Source: Pseudomonas sp. BGr12
GTDB taxonomy: Bacteria; Pseudomonadota; Gammaproteobacteria; Pseudomonadales; Pseudomonadaceae
Assembly: GCF_030272895.1 (NCBI RefSeq)
Contig: NZ_JALRNF010000030.1
Coordinates: 1-64,000, forward strand
Direction of reading: 5' to 3'
DNA: 64,000 bases
Part shown: piece after piece, positions 11,599 to 19,349 of the stretch
How positions within the stretch are numbered: the first letter of the stretch is position 1
Layout of the letters: every line of letters starts with the position of its first letter
Position numbers and translations under genes: made by a program
The notes under the pieces: generated by a model
Databases searched by the model: none
What the model saw: only the letters and a program-made list of their open reading frames with translations
What the model was told of the DNA's origin: nothing

Positions 11599-12483
11599 TC
11601 ACTGTCCCGACAGAAAACTCACCAACTGTCGCCCATGGGGGCTCAAGGTCTCCCAGCTGCGAAAGCACAGGCGCATTTCCAGGGTCGCCCAGCGTTCCTC
11701 CAGCGCCAGGCCGCGCACCGGCAGTTCCTGCTCCAGGCGCCTGGCCGAGGTCTCGGGCAGCATGGCGATCCCGGCATGCTGGGCCACCAGCTGGGCGATG
11801 GCCTCGAAGCTGGGCGCACGCACGCGCACCTTCAGTTGCATGCCCAGGTTCATCGCCAGTTCTTCGATAAAGCGCTGCATGGCGCGCTCCGCCGGCAGGC
11901 AGACGAACGGGTGATTCAGCGCATCGCGCAGGCGCAGTTGCTCGCCGCCGGCCAACGGGTGGTCGACGGGGACCAGCAGCACCAGGCGTTCGGTGCGAAA
12001 GGGCAGGGACACCACGCCCTCGTTGCTGAGGTTGCCGTCATATACGCCGATCTCGCATTCGCCGGCGCGCACTACCCGCAGAATATCCACGCTGCGGTGT
12101 TCCACCAGTTGCAGGTCGACTTCCGGGTAGTCGCACAGAAACGGCCCCAGCACCGTGGGCAACAAGGTGCTGTTGGTGACGGTGGAGGCGGCCAGGTGCA
12201 GGGTGATCCGCCGTTGCCCGGCCAGTTGTTTCAAGGTGTCCTGCAGTTGCTGGGCTTCACCGAGCACCCGGCGGGCGGCCTCCAGCACCAATTGGCCGGT
12301 GGGCGTCAGGTGCATGCCGTCGGGCTTGCGGGTGAACAGGGTCAGGCCGCAACGCTCTTCGAGCAGGCGCAGCCGGGTGCTGGCGGCGGACACCGCCACC
12401 GGGAAGGTCGCCGCAGCCTTGCTCAGGCTGCCACTGGCGGCGACGGCGTCCAGCAGGCGCAGGTCCTGAAGGTCGAAGTGCAT
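11599..12483 (-). CDS. LysR-family transcriptional regulator
   Basis: The 294-residue protein has the LysR winged helix-turn-helix at residues 5-62 (LQDLRLLDAVAASGSLSKAAATFPVAVSAASTRL split around the helices) and a periplasmic-binding-like effector domain from about 90. It diverges from an EamA exporter gene, and two copies of TTCAGAAT lie in the 100-base gap (12497 and 12548). That arrangement suggests it controls the exporter and itself. Effector unknown. Confidence 0.92.
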   Translation of the reverse strand: MHFDLQDLRLLDAVAASGSLSKAAATFPVAVSAASTRLRLLEERCGLTLFTRKPDGMHLTPTGQLVLEAARRVLGEAQQLQDTLKQLAGQRRITLHLAASTVTNSTLLPTVLGPFLCDYPEVDLQLVEHRSVDILRVVRAGECEIGVYDGNLSNEGVVSLPFRTERLVLLVPVDHPLAGGEQLRLRDALNHPFVCLPAERAMQRFIEELAMNLGMQLKVRVRAPSFEAIAQLVAQHAGIAMLPETSARRLEQELPVRGLALEERWATLEMRLCFRSWETLSPHGRQLVSFLSGQ

Positions 12484-12585
12484 GGGGGTTCTCCATTTCA
12501 GAATGGCCTCTTCACTAAAAAGCGATATCTAGCGAGGGGCCTTTCTGTTCAGAATAAAGCCTCAACCAGTCGCTTGCGTACCCCC

Positions 12586-13545
12586 ATGAAACCTTTGCAC
12601 GCCTTGATCCAGCGTTATATTCAAAACGGCAGCCTGTTCGCAGTGCTGGCGGCCCTGGGCTTCAGCTTCAAGGCGATCTTCGTCAAGCTGTCCTATGCCG
12701 CCGGCCCGGTGGATGCGATCACCTTGCTGGCCATGCGCATGGGGCTGTCGTTGCCCCTGTTCATCTGGCTGGTGTGGTCCAGCCGTCGGCACAGCAATGC
12801 GCCATTGACCTTCGCCAGCAGTTTTCAGGTGCTGCTGCTCGGGCTGTTCGGCTACTACCTGGCCAGCCTGTTCGACTTCTATGGCCTGCAGTACATCAGT
12901 GCCGGGTTGGAGCGCCTGATCCTGTTCATCTACCCGACCCTGGTGCTGATCTTCCAGGCCATCGCCCTGCGTGAACGGCCCACGCTGCGCACCCTGGCAG
13001 CCATGGGCATCTGCTACTTCGGCCTGGGTATCGCCTTTGTCCACGACGTCAGCGTTTCGGGCGTGGGCAACCAGGTGATCGTCGGCTCGCTGTGGGTGTT
13101 CGCCAGCGCCGTGACCTACGCGCTCTACTACTCGGGCACCGGCATCCTGCTCAAACGCATGAGCTCCATGCGCCTGGCCGGGCTGGCGGGCACGGCGTCG
13201 TCGGTCATGGTGCTGGGGCATTACCTGCTGGTGGCCGATACCGCGCAGCTTGTGCAGTTGCCGGTGGCGGTCTGGGTCAATGCTTTGATGATGGCGTTGT
13301 TTTCCACGGTGCTGCCGATCTACTGGGTGGCCCTGGCGATCCAGCGCATGGGCGCCACCCAGACCGCAGCGGTGGGCAACCTGGGCCCGGTGCTGACGAT
13401 TCTGGCGTCCTGGCTGCTGCTCAGCGAGGCGATCTCGGCGTACCAGATCGCAGGTCTTGCGCTGGTGCTGTTCGGGGTGTCGCGGTTGAAGCCGGCCACG
13501 CCCAAGGCCGCCGTGCAAGCGACTACCACGGATGCACCGGCATGA
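12586..13545 (+). CDS. EamA-family (DMT) transporter
   Basis: This 319-residue membrane protein has ten predicted transmembrane helices in two EamA repeats (about 15-145 and 165-300); the second repeat ends with LGPVLTILASWLLLSEAIS, typical of drug/metabolite exporters. It probably exports a small metabolite or amino acid under control of the divergent LysR protein. ATG 12586 starts the first repeat. The last 23 bases overlap the 3' end of the convergent fusion-protease gene. Confidence 0.9.
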   Translation: MKPLHALIQRYIQNGSLFAVLAALGFSFKAIFVKLSYAAGPVDAITLLAMRMGLSLPLFIWLVWSSRRHSNAPLTFASSFQVLLLGLFGYYLASLFDFYGLQYISAGLERLILFIYPTLVLIFQAIALRERPTLRTLAAMGICYFGLGIAFVHDVSVSGVGNQVIVGSLWVFASAVTYALYYSGTGILLKRMSSMRLAGLAGTASSVMVLGHYLLVADTAQLVQLPVAVWVNALMMALFSTVLPIYWVALAIQRMGATQTAAVGNLGPVLTILASWLLLSEAISAYQIAGLALVLFGVSRLKPATPKAAVQATTTDAPA

Positions 13546-16500
13546 GGGCCCCGGCCTGCGCCTGGGTGCCTTGACCGGCGGGCGGCAACCAGTCCAGCGG
13601 ATAGCCCGCCCTGATCCACGACTTGATGCCACCGCGGTACCAGAACACATGGGTGTAGCCGAGCTGGATGGCACGCAACGCACTGTTGTAGCTCATCCAG
13701 CACTGATTGTGGTGACAGTAGAAAACCAGCGGGCGGGACTTGTCACCGTGGGTCAGGCGCTCCAGGTCCTGGCCCAGGCGTTGCTGGGTGGCGTCGCTGA
13801 AACTGCCGCCCGCGGATGAATAGCGCAGGTCGATCGCGCCCGGTATGCCGGTACTGCCGCCGATGGAGGACAACACCAGTGGAGGCTTCGCCGTCGCCAG
13901 CTGCTCGGCCAGGGTAGCCGTGCCGATGACCTGTCCACCGGCGATCGTGGTGGGTGTTTCGCCGCCGAAATTGGGGCCGCTGTGCAACTCGCTGGTCGGC
14001 GCGATGGCGCTCAAGGCAAAGTCGTCCGCCTGTATCGCTGCAGCCGGCTCACGGTACTGGCTCTGGTAGAACGCATTGAAACCGGCACCGCTTTCCTTGA
14101 GGTTCATGAACTGTCGCGCAACACCGTCCACCGCCTGGTCGTCGCCTACATGAAACAGGTCGCCGCCCACCACGATCGCGTTCAGGGCGTAAATGACCAT
14201 GGTGTCGTCCCGCCTGGCCAGTTGCTTGAGGTCGACCTTTTCGCCATGGCTCAAGGTCCAGCCGTTGCTGCGCAGCACCGCCTTGTCACAGTCGCTGACG
14301 CAGGCCAGCCGGGCTTCGCCGACCGAGTCGACGCTGTCGTAGCTGGCCGTCGCGCCCCGTCGCCAGAACCCCAGCTTGTCGGGATCGTCCAGTCGCGGGC
14401 TGCTGGCCGCCGGCACGCCGGCCTGCTGGCGCACGGCTTCGATCAGCTGGATGCCCAGGGTGGAGCGCTCGGTGAACAGGCTCTCGACCCGTTCGCGGTA
14501 GGCCCGGGTCACCGTGGAGACCCCGGGGTTGACCTGGTCGGCGTGTTGGCCGGCATCGAAGTACGCAGCCTGGCTCAAGGGCTGCTGGTCTTCGTGCAGC
14601 AGCGGTACCTCGACGGCCTTGTACTGTTCATACATCAGCGCCTTGAAGCGCCGGGCGCCGAACAGGGTCGCCCGGTGCTTGCTCTGGAAGCCGTCGCTGA
14701 CATTGGCGTGCACGGCCAGTACTTCGAACGCGCTTCGCTGCGGGTTCCAGACCAGCAGCGGTCCACCCGAATCACCGAACCAGACATGGCAGTAATGGTT
14801 GAAGGAAATGTTGCGCATGGCCGGCGCGTAGTGATGCCGGCTGATATCGACGATGCAGTGTTTGATCGACGGCGCAATGAACCCCAGCTGGCTTTCGGAA
14901 AGCTTGAACAGATCCCCGGGGTAGCCAATGGCGGCGGCGCTGAGCTGGCTGGCGTTCGACCAGCTCATGTCATCGGCAAAGCGCAAGGGCGTCACAGGCG
15001 TTTGCGGTGTGTGCCGCAGCCTGAGAATGCCCCAGTCCTCGCTGTCGTTCTTGACGTGCTTGATCCAGGTCGCGGGGATGACCTCTTTCTGCGCAGGCGA
15101 GCGCTCGAGGATGACCTGGACGGTTTCCTTGCGATTTTTGCTGCTGGCGCAGTGGCCTGCGGTGACCACCAGGGTCGGGTCGAGGATGAAGGTGCCGCTG
15201 CACGAGCCTCTTTCCACTTTGATGCGCACCAGGGCGTCATAGGGCGCCTGGTTGAAATCGGTGATGAACTGCCGGTCTTCCTGCACGCCAATGCGCTGCC
15301 ATACCGAGCGCACGGGCACCAGCCCACGCTGGGGCAGCGGCAAGGGTGGCAGGCTGTCGAGGCTGGCAAGGTCGGCCTGGCGAATGTAGCCGACCAGGCC
15401 GTGCACGACCTGGCGGTTGAGCCGGTAGTCGGCCTTCTGGTCGAGAAAGCGCTCCACGGACGCTTCGTCGATCTGGGTGACGTAGCCGAAGGTATCGGGG
15501 TAGTCGCGAAGGCTGCTGGCAATGGCGGCGAGCCACCCGGGCGTGGCCGAGGCCCGCGCATACACCAGTTTCCAGCGGCCGATGTCGTGGATGATGGGGG
15601 AGGCTGCATCCGGCTTGAGATGGACCTGCAAGGGCTGCAGGCTCAGGTAGCGTGTGCCGGGGGCGTGGCGAAATCCCCAGGGGATGTCCTGGCCGGCATT
15701 GCCCTCCAGGTTGTCGAAGTAGCGCTCGCCGCCATAGACGTCGGCAGCGGGCGTGCCGTCAGGTGACTTGATCGCGGCGGCGATCTCGGCCCAGTGGCGT
15801 TTATCATCCAGGGTCTGGGCCTCATCCACCAGCCGCCAGGCACGGGTGATGTTGCCGTGGGCGACGGCCTGCCGGTACCAGGGGAAGGCTTCGTTGCGGT
15901 AGGTGTCGCGCAGGCAGGAGTCGAAATAGGCGTCGCCGGTTTTCACCATGGCCTCGGCATCGCCTGCATCGGACAGCCGCTTGAGTGTGGCGACATCGCG
16001 CCCGATTTCTACCCATTTGCGCGCCTTGGCAGGGTCCGGCGCGATGCCCGGCTGTTGCAGGTAGAGGCAGCCGTAGCCCTCAGCCGCCGCCCCGGACAAG
16101 CTACCTTGCCCGGCCGCGCGGGACAGCCAGGATTCGGCCTTGCGGTTGCGGTAGGTCCTGATCGGTGAGTCCTTGAAGGTCGGTTCGTCGATGTGCTCGA
16201 AGTCCAGGTAGGCCAGGCCCAGTTGCGCGGCGGCCTGGCTGTCGCCTGCCTGCGCTTTGGCGCGGGTGGTATCGAGCCCTGTGCCGTATTCCCACCAGTA
16301 GGCCTCTTTGTCGAGATCTGCCGCAACGCCGCCCATGCCCTTGGCATAGACCCGCCTCAGCTCGTCCGATGCAGGCTTTCGATAACCCTGGTCGGCTGCC
16401 GCCTGGGTCAACAGTTCGATGCCCCGGGGTACGTCCAGTGGCACTTGCCGTGCGCCTTCAGCGGGTTTCAGTCGATTGAGGTACGCCAGCCCCTGCAGGT

Positions 16501-16597
16501 AGGCCGTCTCGGCACTGTCCTGGCCTTGCGCCTGGGCAGGCACGGCGAGGGGGAGCGTGGCGAGCAGGAGCAGTAGCCGGTGCGCGAATCGGGCCAT
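13523..16597 (-). CDS. Exported Sel1-repeat / trypsin-like protease / rhodanese fusion
   Basis: A 1024-residue protein with signal peptide (LLLLLATLPLAVPAQAQ). About residues 40-270 read as Sel1-like helical repeats (AAAQLGLAYLDFE, AMVKTGDAYFDSC). About 445-690 is a chymotrypsin-fold serine protease with full triad: His in VTAGHC (about 480), Asp in SEDWGIL (about 520), Ser in FGDSGGPL (about 610). The C-terminus (about 900-1010) is rhodanese-like, with active-site loop FYCHHNQCWMS near 959 and the end YTHVFWYRGGIKSW, like PQQ-associated CxxCW rhodaneses. A region with further cysteines (ACVSDCDKAV) links them. Likely periplasmic. It stands alone, so partners are unknown. I know each family but not this combination. 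Confidence 0.85.
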   Translation of the reverse strand: MARFAHRLLLLLATLPLAVPAQAQGQDSAETAYLQGLAYLNRLKPAEGARQVPLDVPRGIELLTQAAADQGYRKPASDELRRVYAKGMGGVAADLDKEAYWWEYGTGLDTTRAKAQAGDSQAAAQLGLAYLDFEHIDEPTFKDSPIRTYRNRKAESWLSRAAGQGSLSGAAAEGYGCLYLQQPGIAPDPAKARKWVEIGRDVATLKRLSDAGDAEAMVKTGDAYFDSCLRDTYRNEAFPWYRQAVAHGNITRAWRLVDEAQTLDDKRHWAEIAAAIKSPDGTPAADVYGGERYFDNLEGNAGQDIPWGFRHAPGTRYLSLQPLQVHLKPDAASPIIHDIGRWKLVYARASATPGWLAAIASSLRDYPDTFGYVTQIDEASVERFLDQKADYRLNRQVVHGLVGYIRQADLASLDSLPPLPLPQRGLVPVRSVWQRIGVQEDRQFITDFNQAPYDALVRIKVERGSCSGTFILDPTLVVTAGHCASSKNRKETVQVILERSPAQKEVIPATWIKHVKNDSEDWGILRLRHTPQTPVTPLRFADDMSWSNASQLSAAAIGYPGDLFKLSESQLGFIAPSIKHCIVDISRHHYAPAMRNISFNHYCHVWFGDSGGPLLVWNPQRSAFEVLAVHANVSDGFQSKHRATLFGARRFKALMYEQYKAVEVPLLHEDQQPLSQAAYFDAGQHADQVNPGVSTVTRAYRERVESLFTERSTLGIQLIEAVRQQAGVPAASSPRLDDPDKLGFWRRGATASYDSVDSVGEARLACVSDCDKAVLRSNGWTLSHGEKVDLKQLARRDDTMVIYALNAIVVGGDLFHVGDDQAVDGVARQFMNLKESGAGFNAFYQSQYREPAAAIQADDFALSAIAPTSELHSGPNFGGETPTTIAGGQVIGTATLAEQLATAKPPLVLSSIGGSTGIPGAIDLRYSSAGGSFSDATQQRLGQDLERLTHGDKSRPLVFYCHHNQCWMSYNSALRAIQLGYTHVFWYRGGIKSWIRAGYPLDWLPPAGQGTQAQAGALMPVHPW

Positions 16598-17525: not shown

Positions 17526-17597
17526 CCGATCGCAGCCTGGCGGCAGCTCCTACAGATGCCCTGCAATCACTGTAGGAGCTGGCGAAGCCTGCGATCG
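17526..17597. repeat. Inverted repeat pair, type 2 (GAGCTGGCGAAGCCTGCGATC)
   Basis: Right arm TGTAGGAGCTGGCGAAGCC plus TGCGATCG; left arm is an imperfect complement (CGATCGCAGCCTGGCGGCAGC). This palindrome family differs from the type 1 REP and recurs at 34918. It lies 3' of the OYE-family gene. Confidence 0.8.
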
Positions 17598-17615
17598 ACT
17601 GCGCAGCAGTCGCCA

Positions 17616-18851
17616 TCAGCTTTCGGCACGCTGCGCCATCCACTGCCGGTACTGGCGGGCACGCAGGGCGTTGGCCAGCTGTTGCCCAAGCAACGCCCGA
17701 AGCGGCCAGACCTTCGGGTCGGGCGCTCGGCCCAGGCTGAGCTTGCGCAACTGGAACTTGACCAGGGCCATGTTCGCCAGCGATGCCAGCGGTTTGTTCT
17801 TCCAAGTGATGGGTGGCATCTGCGGCGCCGTGTCCTTGCCCCGCAGCCAGTCGCGCGGCAGGTTGGGGGCGATGGCCAGTGCAGTGCCCATGCCGGCCAT
17901 GGCTACGCCGCTGCCCAGCACCTGTTCGGCAACCACCCGGCGACGTATGCCGCCGGTGACCATCAACGGCATCCTGGCCACCTGCTGCACATCCCGGGCG
18001 AATTCCAGAAAATACGCTTCGCGGGCGAGGGTGCGGCCATCACGGGCCTGGCCCTGCATGGCCGGCGCCTCGTAGCTGCCTCCCGACAACTCAACCAGGT
18101 CCACGGCCTGGTCATTGAGCAGCTTGACCACTTCGCGGGCATCGTCGGCGCTGAAGCCGCCGCGCTGGAAGTCGGCGGAGTTGAGTTTGACCGCCACGGC
18201 AAACTGCGCAGACACCACGGCCCGCACCGCCTTGACGATTTCCAGTAGCAGACGGGCACGGTTTTCCAGCGGCCCGCCCCAGGCATCGGTACGCTGGTTG
18301 GCCAGCGGCGACAGGAACTGGCTCAGCAGGTAGCCATGGGCGGCGTGGATCTGTACGCCGTTGAAGCCAGCACGTTCGGCCAGTTGCGCGGTGCGGGCGA
18401 AACGCTGGATCACTTCATCGATCATGTCCTCGGTCATCGCCTGGGGCAGATTGAAGTGCCTGGACAGGTTGCCCAGCTCCAGCGCCACTGCCGAGGGGGC
18501 CCAGGTCGGCTGGCCGAGATTGGCCGGCATCTGCCGGCCAGGGTGGTTGATCTGCAGCCAGAACTGCGCACCGCGCGCGCGGCCGATGGCGGCCCAGCGC
18601 TTGAACTTGTCCAGCTGCCGGTCGTCCTCCAGCACCACGCCCCCGGGGCCGGTCATGGCCCGGCGGTCAACCATCACGTTGCCGCTGATCAACAGGCCGG
18701 CACCACCCTCGGCCCAGGCCTGGTAGAGGCGCATCAGCTCGGCCGAGGGCGCCTGGTCGGCATCGGCCATGTTCTCTTCCATCGCGGCCTTGGCCAGGCG
18801 ATTGGCGATCACGCCGCCGTTGGGGAGCATCAGTGTGTCGAACAGGTTCAT
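17616..18851 (-). CDS. NADH:flavin oxidoreductase, Old Yellow Enzyme family
   Basis: A 411-residue FMN-dependent TIM-barrel enzyme. Visible landmarks: NRLAKAAMEE near the N-terminus, the flavin/substrate residues in QINHPGRQMP (about 100-109), the GFNGVQIHAAHGYLLSQFLSP motif (about 168-188), VAVKLNSADF and the phosphate site MVTGGIRRR. Such enzymes reduce activated C=C bonds of electrophiles. ATG 18851 follows GAGGTGG. It diverges from a MerR-type regulator with a perfect 16-base palindrome between them, so it is probably the regulator's target. Confidence 0.92.
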   Translation of the reverse strand: MNLFDTLMLPNGGVIANRLAKAAMEENMADADQAPSAELMRLYQAWAEGGAGLLISGNVMVDRRAMTGPGGVVLEDDRQLDKFKRWAAIGRARGAQFWLQINHPGRQMPANLGQPTWAPSAVALELGNLSRHFNLPQAMTEDMIDEVIQRFARTAQLAERAGFNGVQIHAAHGYLLSQFLSPLANQRTDAWGGPLENRARLLLEIVKAVRAVVSAQFAVAVKLNSADFQRGGFSADDAREVVKLLNDQAVDLVELSGGSYEAPAMQGQARDGRTLAREAYFLEFARDVQQVARMPLMVTGGIRRRVVAEQVLGSGVAMAGMGTALAIAPNLPRDWLRGKDTAPQMPPITWKNKPLASLANMALVKFQLRKLSLGRAPDPKVWPLRALLGQQLANALRARQYRQWMAQRAES

Positions 18852-18888
18852 GGGGGCCACCTCTATTGATCGTGGATCAACCATAAGA

Positions 18889-18904
18889 TTAAAGTTAACT
18901 TTAA
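18889..18904. promoter_or_regulatory. MerR-type operator between the OYE and MerR genes
   Basis: Perfect palindrome TTAAAGTTAACTTTAA in the 81-base divergent gap, centred about 46 bases from the OYE start. A palindrome inside a stretched promoter spacer is the usual MerR-family operator. Confidence 0.6.
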
Positions 18905-18932
18905 TGTCAACAGCCTTTTGGGAGAGCGCGCA

Positions 18933-19349
18933 ATGAGGATTGGAGAGCTGGCCAAGCGCAGCGGCCTGACGGCTTCACGTATCCGCTTCTACGAGTCCAG
19001 CGGCCTGATCACGTCGGTGACGCGCAAGGCCAATGGCTATCGCGACTACAGCCCGGACGCGGTGTGGATCCTGCAGATCATCACCGGCGCCCAGCGTGCC
19101 GGGTTCTCGCTCGATGAAATCCGCCACCTGTTGCCGGTCAGCCCCAATGCCTGGCAACACGACGAGTTGCTCGCCGGCCTCAAGGGCAAGGTCGCCGAAA
19201 TCGAGGCGCTGCAGCAGCAGCTCGAGCAGAACCGGGCGCAACTGCTGCTGGTGATCGAAAGCATCGAGAACCGCCCCGAAGAGCGGCCCTGCGCCGACAA
19301 CGCGCAGTTGTTGCTCAAGCGCCTGCAGGCCAACACCACCGACGCGTAG
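18933..19349 (+). CDS. MerR-family transcriptional regulator
   Basis: A 138-residue regulator starting with the canonical MRIGELAKRSGLTASRIRFYE helix region split after residue 20, followed by the wing (KANGYRDYSPDAVWIL) and a long C-terminal dimerisation helix (about 80-120) with one cysteine near the end (RPCADN). There is no SoxR-type four-cysteine cluster, so it is not an iron-sulphur sensor. ATG 18933 follows GGGAGAG. It probably controls the divergent OYE-family gene in response to an electrophile. Confidence 0.9.
   Translation: MRIGELAKRSGLTASRIRFYESSGLITSVTRKANGYRDYSPDAVWILQIITGAQRAGFSLDEIRHLLPVSPNAWQHDELLAGLKGKVAEIEALQQQLEQNRAQLLLVIESIENRPEERPCADNAQLLLKRLQANTTDA

Follow-up and report, generated by a model that had tools for sequence, protein, structure and literature searches.

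Proteases of the glutamyl endopeptidase or V8 group are stand-alone secreted enzymes in which a specificity histidine sits near the C-terminal barrel. For exported rhodaneses with a CXXCW or CX4CW loop the function is, to our knowledge, open. We describe here a gene that joins these two kinds of domain in one reading frame with a helical-repeat region and a probable SH3-like domain. It lies in a 64,000-nucleotide stretch of DNA from Pseudomonas sp. BGr12 (assembly GCF_030272895.1, contig NZ_JALRNF010000030.1, positions 1 to 64,000), which at its full length is called the window below. Judged from sequence comparison, there is about an even chance that the product is an exported chymotrypsin-fold endopeptidase embedded in a multidomain chain, with an N-terminal half that would serve docking and a rhodanese that would be accessory. 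An earlier annotation of this DNA made from its letters alone (the sequence-only reading) had recognized the parts but not the architecture. In agreement, the known parts occur here in a combination for which a full-text search of open-licence PubMed Central found no paper; members of the family are already present in protein databases, where their names include "trypsin-like serine protease" and "rhodanese-like domain-containing protein". The only paper in that collection in which Sel1, trypsin and rhodanese appear together (PMC5090222) concerns, in the portion consulted, manganese deficiency in Arabidopsis.

The one-frame fusion that had been proposed is real, and it is conserved. Twelve database proteins match it at 43-90% identity across 81-100% of the chain, all with precomputed Trypsin and Rhodanese domains, and the named homologs come from Pseudomonas and Azotobacter. 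This count is a lower bound because the search scored only 8000 candidates. A search from the most distant member (P0012) returned 13 proteins, namely itself, ten of the twelve and the pieces P0025 (669 residues) and P0026 (733 residues). The fusion is also present in three named genomes, those of P. sichuanensis (locus L032), P. parasichuanensis (L034) and a Pseudomonas metagenome-assembled genome (L033). The gene is a rare accessory gene: a full-length match occurs in one of 25 genus genomes, our own, and is missing from a genome labelled as the same species (G017), whilst in the family it occurs in four of 398 sampled genomes, our own and G254, G269 and G318, which are the three named fusion genomes. 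A further 31 of these family genomes match in the rhodanese part only, and in the genus to which G254 belongs the sample of 398 genomes holds two full-length matches, G254 and G269. Such patchy occurrence would suit a chance open frame, mis-joined genes or an assembly artefact, but twelve proteins with the same core and three named genomes with the fusion rule this out to near certainty. The frames moreover lack internal stops, and the ratio of nonsynonymous to synonymous substitution rates (dN/dS) over residues 165-1003 is below 1, at 0.22 for P. sichuanensis against P. parasichuanensis and 0.36 for our gene against P. sichuanensis; in comparisons with the metagenome-assembled genome the synonymous sites were saturated.

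The protease part is the best defined of the domains. Pfam Trypsin matches residues 456-618 (E 1.9e-10; 41.4 against a cut-off of 20.6 bits), and the profile is matched by all 13 members of alignment A1 (E up to 10; best 8.2e-15). Score and ordered His-Asp-Ser triad together place it in serine peptidase family S1 (chymotrypsin fold), and the triad residues H482, D521 and S610 stand in the motifs to which the sequence-only reading had assigned them. The predicted protease, which resembles known proteases in sequence and in fold, appears nearest to Escherichia coli YdgD and the V8 group, an assignment that we hold as evenly balanced as the overall reading to which it belongs. Weak matches to PADLOC models of anti-phage defence fall in the same part of the chain (4.8e-4 and 0.015), and we have not adopted a defence-system label.

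Conservation was assessed in a 19-row alignment made up of our own copy, P0001-P0013, P0025, P0026 and L032-L034, in which P0007/L032 and P0008/L033 are near-duplicate rows and three rows (P0013, P0025, P0026) hold only part of the chain. In the V8-type enzyme of PDB 1p3c the counterpart of R442 is residue 8, which places residue 1 of that chain at 435, and I436 is isoleucine in all 18 of the 19 rows that cover it. Because the solved V8-type chain would begin at about residue 435 and I436 is invariant, we propose a pro-enzyme step: a cut near 435 would expose I436 as the new N-terminal residue and yield a fragment made up of protease and rhodanese, and the half upstream may also act as a pro-part. 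In classical activation an aspartate of the D609 type, beside the nucleophile serine, pairs with the freed N-terminus.

Several observations weigh against the endopeptidase reading. Residue 435, before the proposed cut, varies and therefore does not point to any one processing enzyme. D609 is replaced by alanine, valine or isoleucine in 4 of 18 rows, all in one sub-branch, where activation through pairing of the freed N-terminus with an aspartate is thus impossible. H630, a possible glutamate-specificity residue, occurs only in our own copy, P0001, P0006, P0007, L032 and L034. Finally, no partner gene in an operon or island was found, the neighborhoods of our gene and of L032-L034 differing by eye. 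The D609 replacements would also fit a protein whose protease part has, in part of the family, ceased to be a protease and become a binding domain, the whole serving as an envelope scaffold. Domains of the Sel1 and SH3-like kinds serve in binding, and bacteria do have serine proteases that have been put to another use, MamO being one according to the excerpt consulted. We nonetheless regard the scaffold as unlikely, since histidine, aspartate and serine are all retained in every covering row, and a domain used only for binding could do without them.

In the endopeptidase reading the chain would act in the periplasm or outside the cell. The N-terminus (MARFAHRLLLLLATLPLAVPAQAQ) reads by eye as a probable Sec-type signal, in line with the export signal of the sequence-only reading. 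Eight of the ten cysteines (C177, C228, C466, C483, C581, C603, C766 and C770) are invariant in every covering row, and it is the signal peptide together with this even number of conserved cysteines, presumably paired, that suggests the location. Downstream of the signal, the Sel1 repeats of the sequence-only reading hold in part. In our copy Pfam Sel1 falls short of its cut-off (E 0.77; 10.9 against 30.7 bits), but two homologs pass it (P0012, 69.8; P0003, 36) and a precomputed Sel1 domain is present in 8 of the 12. Phmmer aligns the region with solved Sel1/TPR-type proteins (PDB 6deh, 5.2e-7; 6ur7, 3e-5), and Foldseek with the low-confidence full-length model recovers 6ur7 at E 1.9e-6, but with a TM-score of only 0.29 by target. 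Residues 51 to 250 are helical in that model, with blocks of predicted local distance difference test scores (pLDDT) mostly at 79-94. The N-terminal part shows the greatest length variation between homologs, complete proteins ranging from 875 to 1119 residues. Together with the probable SH3-like domain at residues 313-417, the repeats would dock partners or cell-envelope ligands, and it is reasonable to propose that the Sel1 part would hold partners for the protease. Beyond the protease, a Pfam search with residues 640-871, which take in the unassigned residues 730-862, gave no match; the ten-residue blocks of 730-862 have pLDDT of at most 75 nearly throughout. Coordinates are collected in the table.

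Features of the gene, with positions numbered in the window
Feature	Positions	Strand	Basis or remark
Whole gene, 1024-residue exported Sel1 / SH3-like / serine protease / rhodanese protein	13523..16597	-	ATG start
Residues 1-23, probable Sec signal peptide, cleavage site of AQA|Q type, without lipobox	16529..16597	-	By eye
Residues 27-275, Sel1-like helical repeats	15773..16519	-	Phmmer, Foldseek, helices in model
Residues 313-417, probable SH3-like beta domain	15347..15661	-	
Residues 434-728, chymotrypsin-fold serine protease	14414..15298	-	
I436, putative new N-terminus of mature protease	15290..15292	-	Conservation and offset to 1p3c
H482, catalytic His (TAGHC)	15152..15154	-	18/18 covering rows, own copy included
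D521, catalytic Asp (EDW)	15035..15037	-	18/18 covering rows, own copy included
S610, catalytic Ser (GDSGG)	14768..14770	-	18/18 covering rows, own copy included
Residues 730-862, with C766/C770 and VVGGDLF stretch	14012..14410	-	Conserved in alignment A1
Residues 863-1003, CX4CW-type rhodanese domain	13589..14011	-	
C961, aligned with Cys of YC motif in solved rhodaneses	13715..13717	-	
C966, second loop Cys (CW)	13700..13702	-	Cys in 17/18 covering rows

The C-terminal part belongs to the rhodanese superfamily by its Pfam score (residues 918-996; E 3.2e-10; 40.8 against a cut-off of 22.2 bits), by its fold and by the position of the catalytic cysteine, C961, at the end of the central strand, a placement made through weak HMMER alignments to PDB 6mxv (3.2e-5) and 2hhg (0.037). 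The sequence-only reading had called this domain a CxxCW-type rhodanese; the rhodanese stands, but the loop reads C961-HHNQ-C966-W and so has CX4CW spacing. TIGR03865 (PQQ_CXXCW) is the best NCBIfam match to the C-terminus (4.4e-24), at 85.2 bits short of its curated cut-off of 128.05. All 26 short TIGR03865-type relatives inspected (L006-L031), in which the loop was sought as C, 2-5 residues, CW, then M or L, have a CX3CW loop, the family name notwithstanding.

The TIGR03865 match raises the possibility that the protein is an envelope sulfurtransferase first, with the rhodanese as the working part and the protease maturing or clearing its partners. Such a role is possible for CXXCW proteins near dehydrogenases dependent on pyrroloquinoline quinone (PQQ), and in the part of the source consulted the locus tag of a CXXCW protein of Azospirillum brasilense falls near the tags of exaA and pedF (PMC12826043). 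We hold this to be quite improbable, given the missed cut-off, the different loop spacing, the loss of the cysteine pair in two species and the fact that no PQQ genes were noticed by eye beside our gene or in L032-L034.

Relatives of the rhodanese part were sought with residues 640-1024 as query, which retrieved 12 proteins: a fusion piece (P0013), ten short CX4CW rhodaneses of 214-331 residues (P0014-P0023), which are 43-54% identical across the rhodanese part, and a CX3CW protein (P0024). Alignment A2, which took in nine of the ten, matched 9 of 369 class genomes at 1e-15, our own included, with only G592 close (1e-79), and 7 of 398 phylum genomes at 1e-25, again including our own. Close stand-alone relatives are thus scarce in the sampled genomes; within our own genome a search for a second copy or a stand-alone CXXCW gene returned only this gene. 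A search for the loop pattern found 5 of the 369 class genomes (our own, G592, G701, G466 and G449, the last at locus L059), and the matches in G701 and G466 were taken as chance, there being no rhodanese among nearby frames of at least 80 residues. In G592 the gene is close to the end of a contig that also carries an ATP-binding cassette transporter block, a setting that is not informative.

The sequence-only reading had gone further and suggested that the protein might be a self-contained periplasmic protease triggered by sulfur or redox state, with a rhodanese that could carry persulfide or redox state. For the loop seen here this would mean that uptake of persulfide by the CX4C pair, or its oxidation, controls whether the protease joined to it is active. 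Both loop cysteines are present together in 15 of the 18 covering rows, our own copy included, and a CX4CW relative in Azospirillum is encoded near an exported thioredoxin-like gene, but this context is a hint only, because it comes from one lineage and is of one kind. On plasmid pAB510e the order is exported thioredoxin-like gene, second gene (CAP-like by eye) and lipoprotein CX4CW rhodanese, and the same three-gene order is seen in Azospirillum lipoferum; the plasmid loci are L065:3817-6462 and L064:3823-6468.

Of the cysteines in our copy, only C961 and C966 vary across the alignment, and they are precisely those that a sulfur or dithiol switch needs. C961 is retained in 16 of 18 rows and is glycine in P0007 and L032 (P. 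sichuanensis); C966 is serine in L034 (P. parasichuanensis). These variants keep the triad, which argues against a redox or sulfur trigger as the way in which the whole family works, and nothing positive was found for it. The full-length model (predicted template modelling score 0.37) is too weak to place the rhodanese loop relative to the protease or to show contact between them. We therefore think the switch improbable and favor, within the endopeptidase reading, a rhodanese that would be a thiol- or partner-binding accessory, akin to that of the short exported CX4CW proteins, and not an obligatory switch. A narrower version is a long shot: in members with both loop cysteines the rhodanese might sense persulfide or disulfide and so gate an envelope protease of the pro-enzyme type to which partners are docked, with P. 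sichuanensis and P. parasichuanensis as natural escapees whose enzyme would be ungated.

The two sister species have lost different loop cysteines, the loops reading FYGHHPQCW (L032:8001-10493) and FYCHGPQSW (L034:8001-10493). Synonymous divergence between them is 0.45 in the rhodanese part and 0.10-0.29 in the other parts, which would fit replacement of the rhodanese by recombination.

In the neighborhood comparison L032 and L034 share, by eye, their right-side genes; no common neighbors were found otherwise. The best matches of the blocks flanking our gene (11619-13488 and 17593-19281) lie more than 0.3 Mb apart in four of five related genomes (G005, G006, G009 and G017), and G012 has a good match for the right block only; weaker secondary matches of the right block, about 70% identical, also occur in G006, G009 and G017. 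The distance between the blocks in relatives places the gene at a point of rearrangement or insertion. A plasmid search matched 107 records, none at 80% query coverage and, among the matches listed (the best 20 of the 107), in the rhodanese part only; a phage search gave no match. Recent foreign origin gained no clear sign from base composition: the G+C content is 65.4% in the gene, 61.8% in the window and 60.2 and 63.6% in the flanks, and that at third codon positions is 0.83, close to the 0.85, 0.84 and 0.81 of three neighbors. A convergent plus-strand frame for an EamA-type transporter ends at 13545, giving a 23-base tail-to-tail overlap with the gene (13523-13545).

If the endopeptidase reading is right, envelope proteolysis in Pseudomonas relatives would gain a protease that carries a scaffold and perhaps regulates itself, and a CX4CW rhodanese would be physically tied, in a defined arrangement, to a second enzyme. 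The fusion, together with natural alleles short of one or the other cysteine, makes the role of an exported rhodanese testable by simple activity assays.

Each of the known systems resembles the protein in one part. E. coli YdgD (PDB 7uxg), a putative serine protease, has a chain of 273 residues, which leaves no room for the Sel1, SH3-like and rhodanese parts. The V8 group (PDB 1p3c, 4jcn, 1wcz) differs in that the candidate for its specificity residue is not conserved in the present family, and the bacterial Sel1-repeat proteins 6deh, 6ur7 and 8sxq (LceB) are alike in their helical repeats and matched there only. The inspected members of the TIGR03865 family lack a fused protease as well as the CX4CW spacing. 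At the C-terminus the short exported CX4CW rhodaneses P0014-P0023 share a similar lead-in (mostly LHxGxxxGxTPxxIPGG) and a CWMSYN loop; like the Azospirillum protein P0029 they are single-domain proteins that begin with a signal-like stretch and have linkers that by eye are of low complexity, and differ from the present protein in having no protease.

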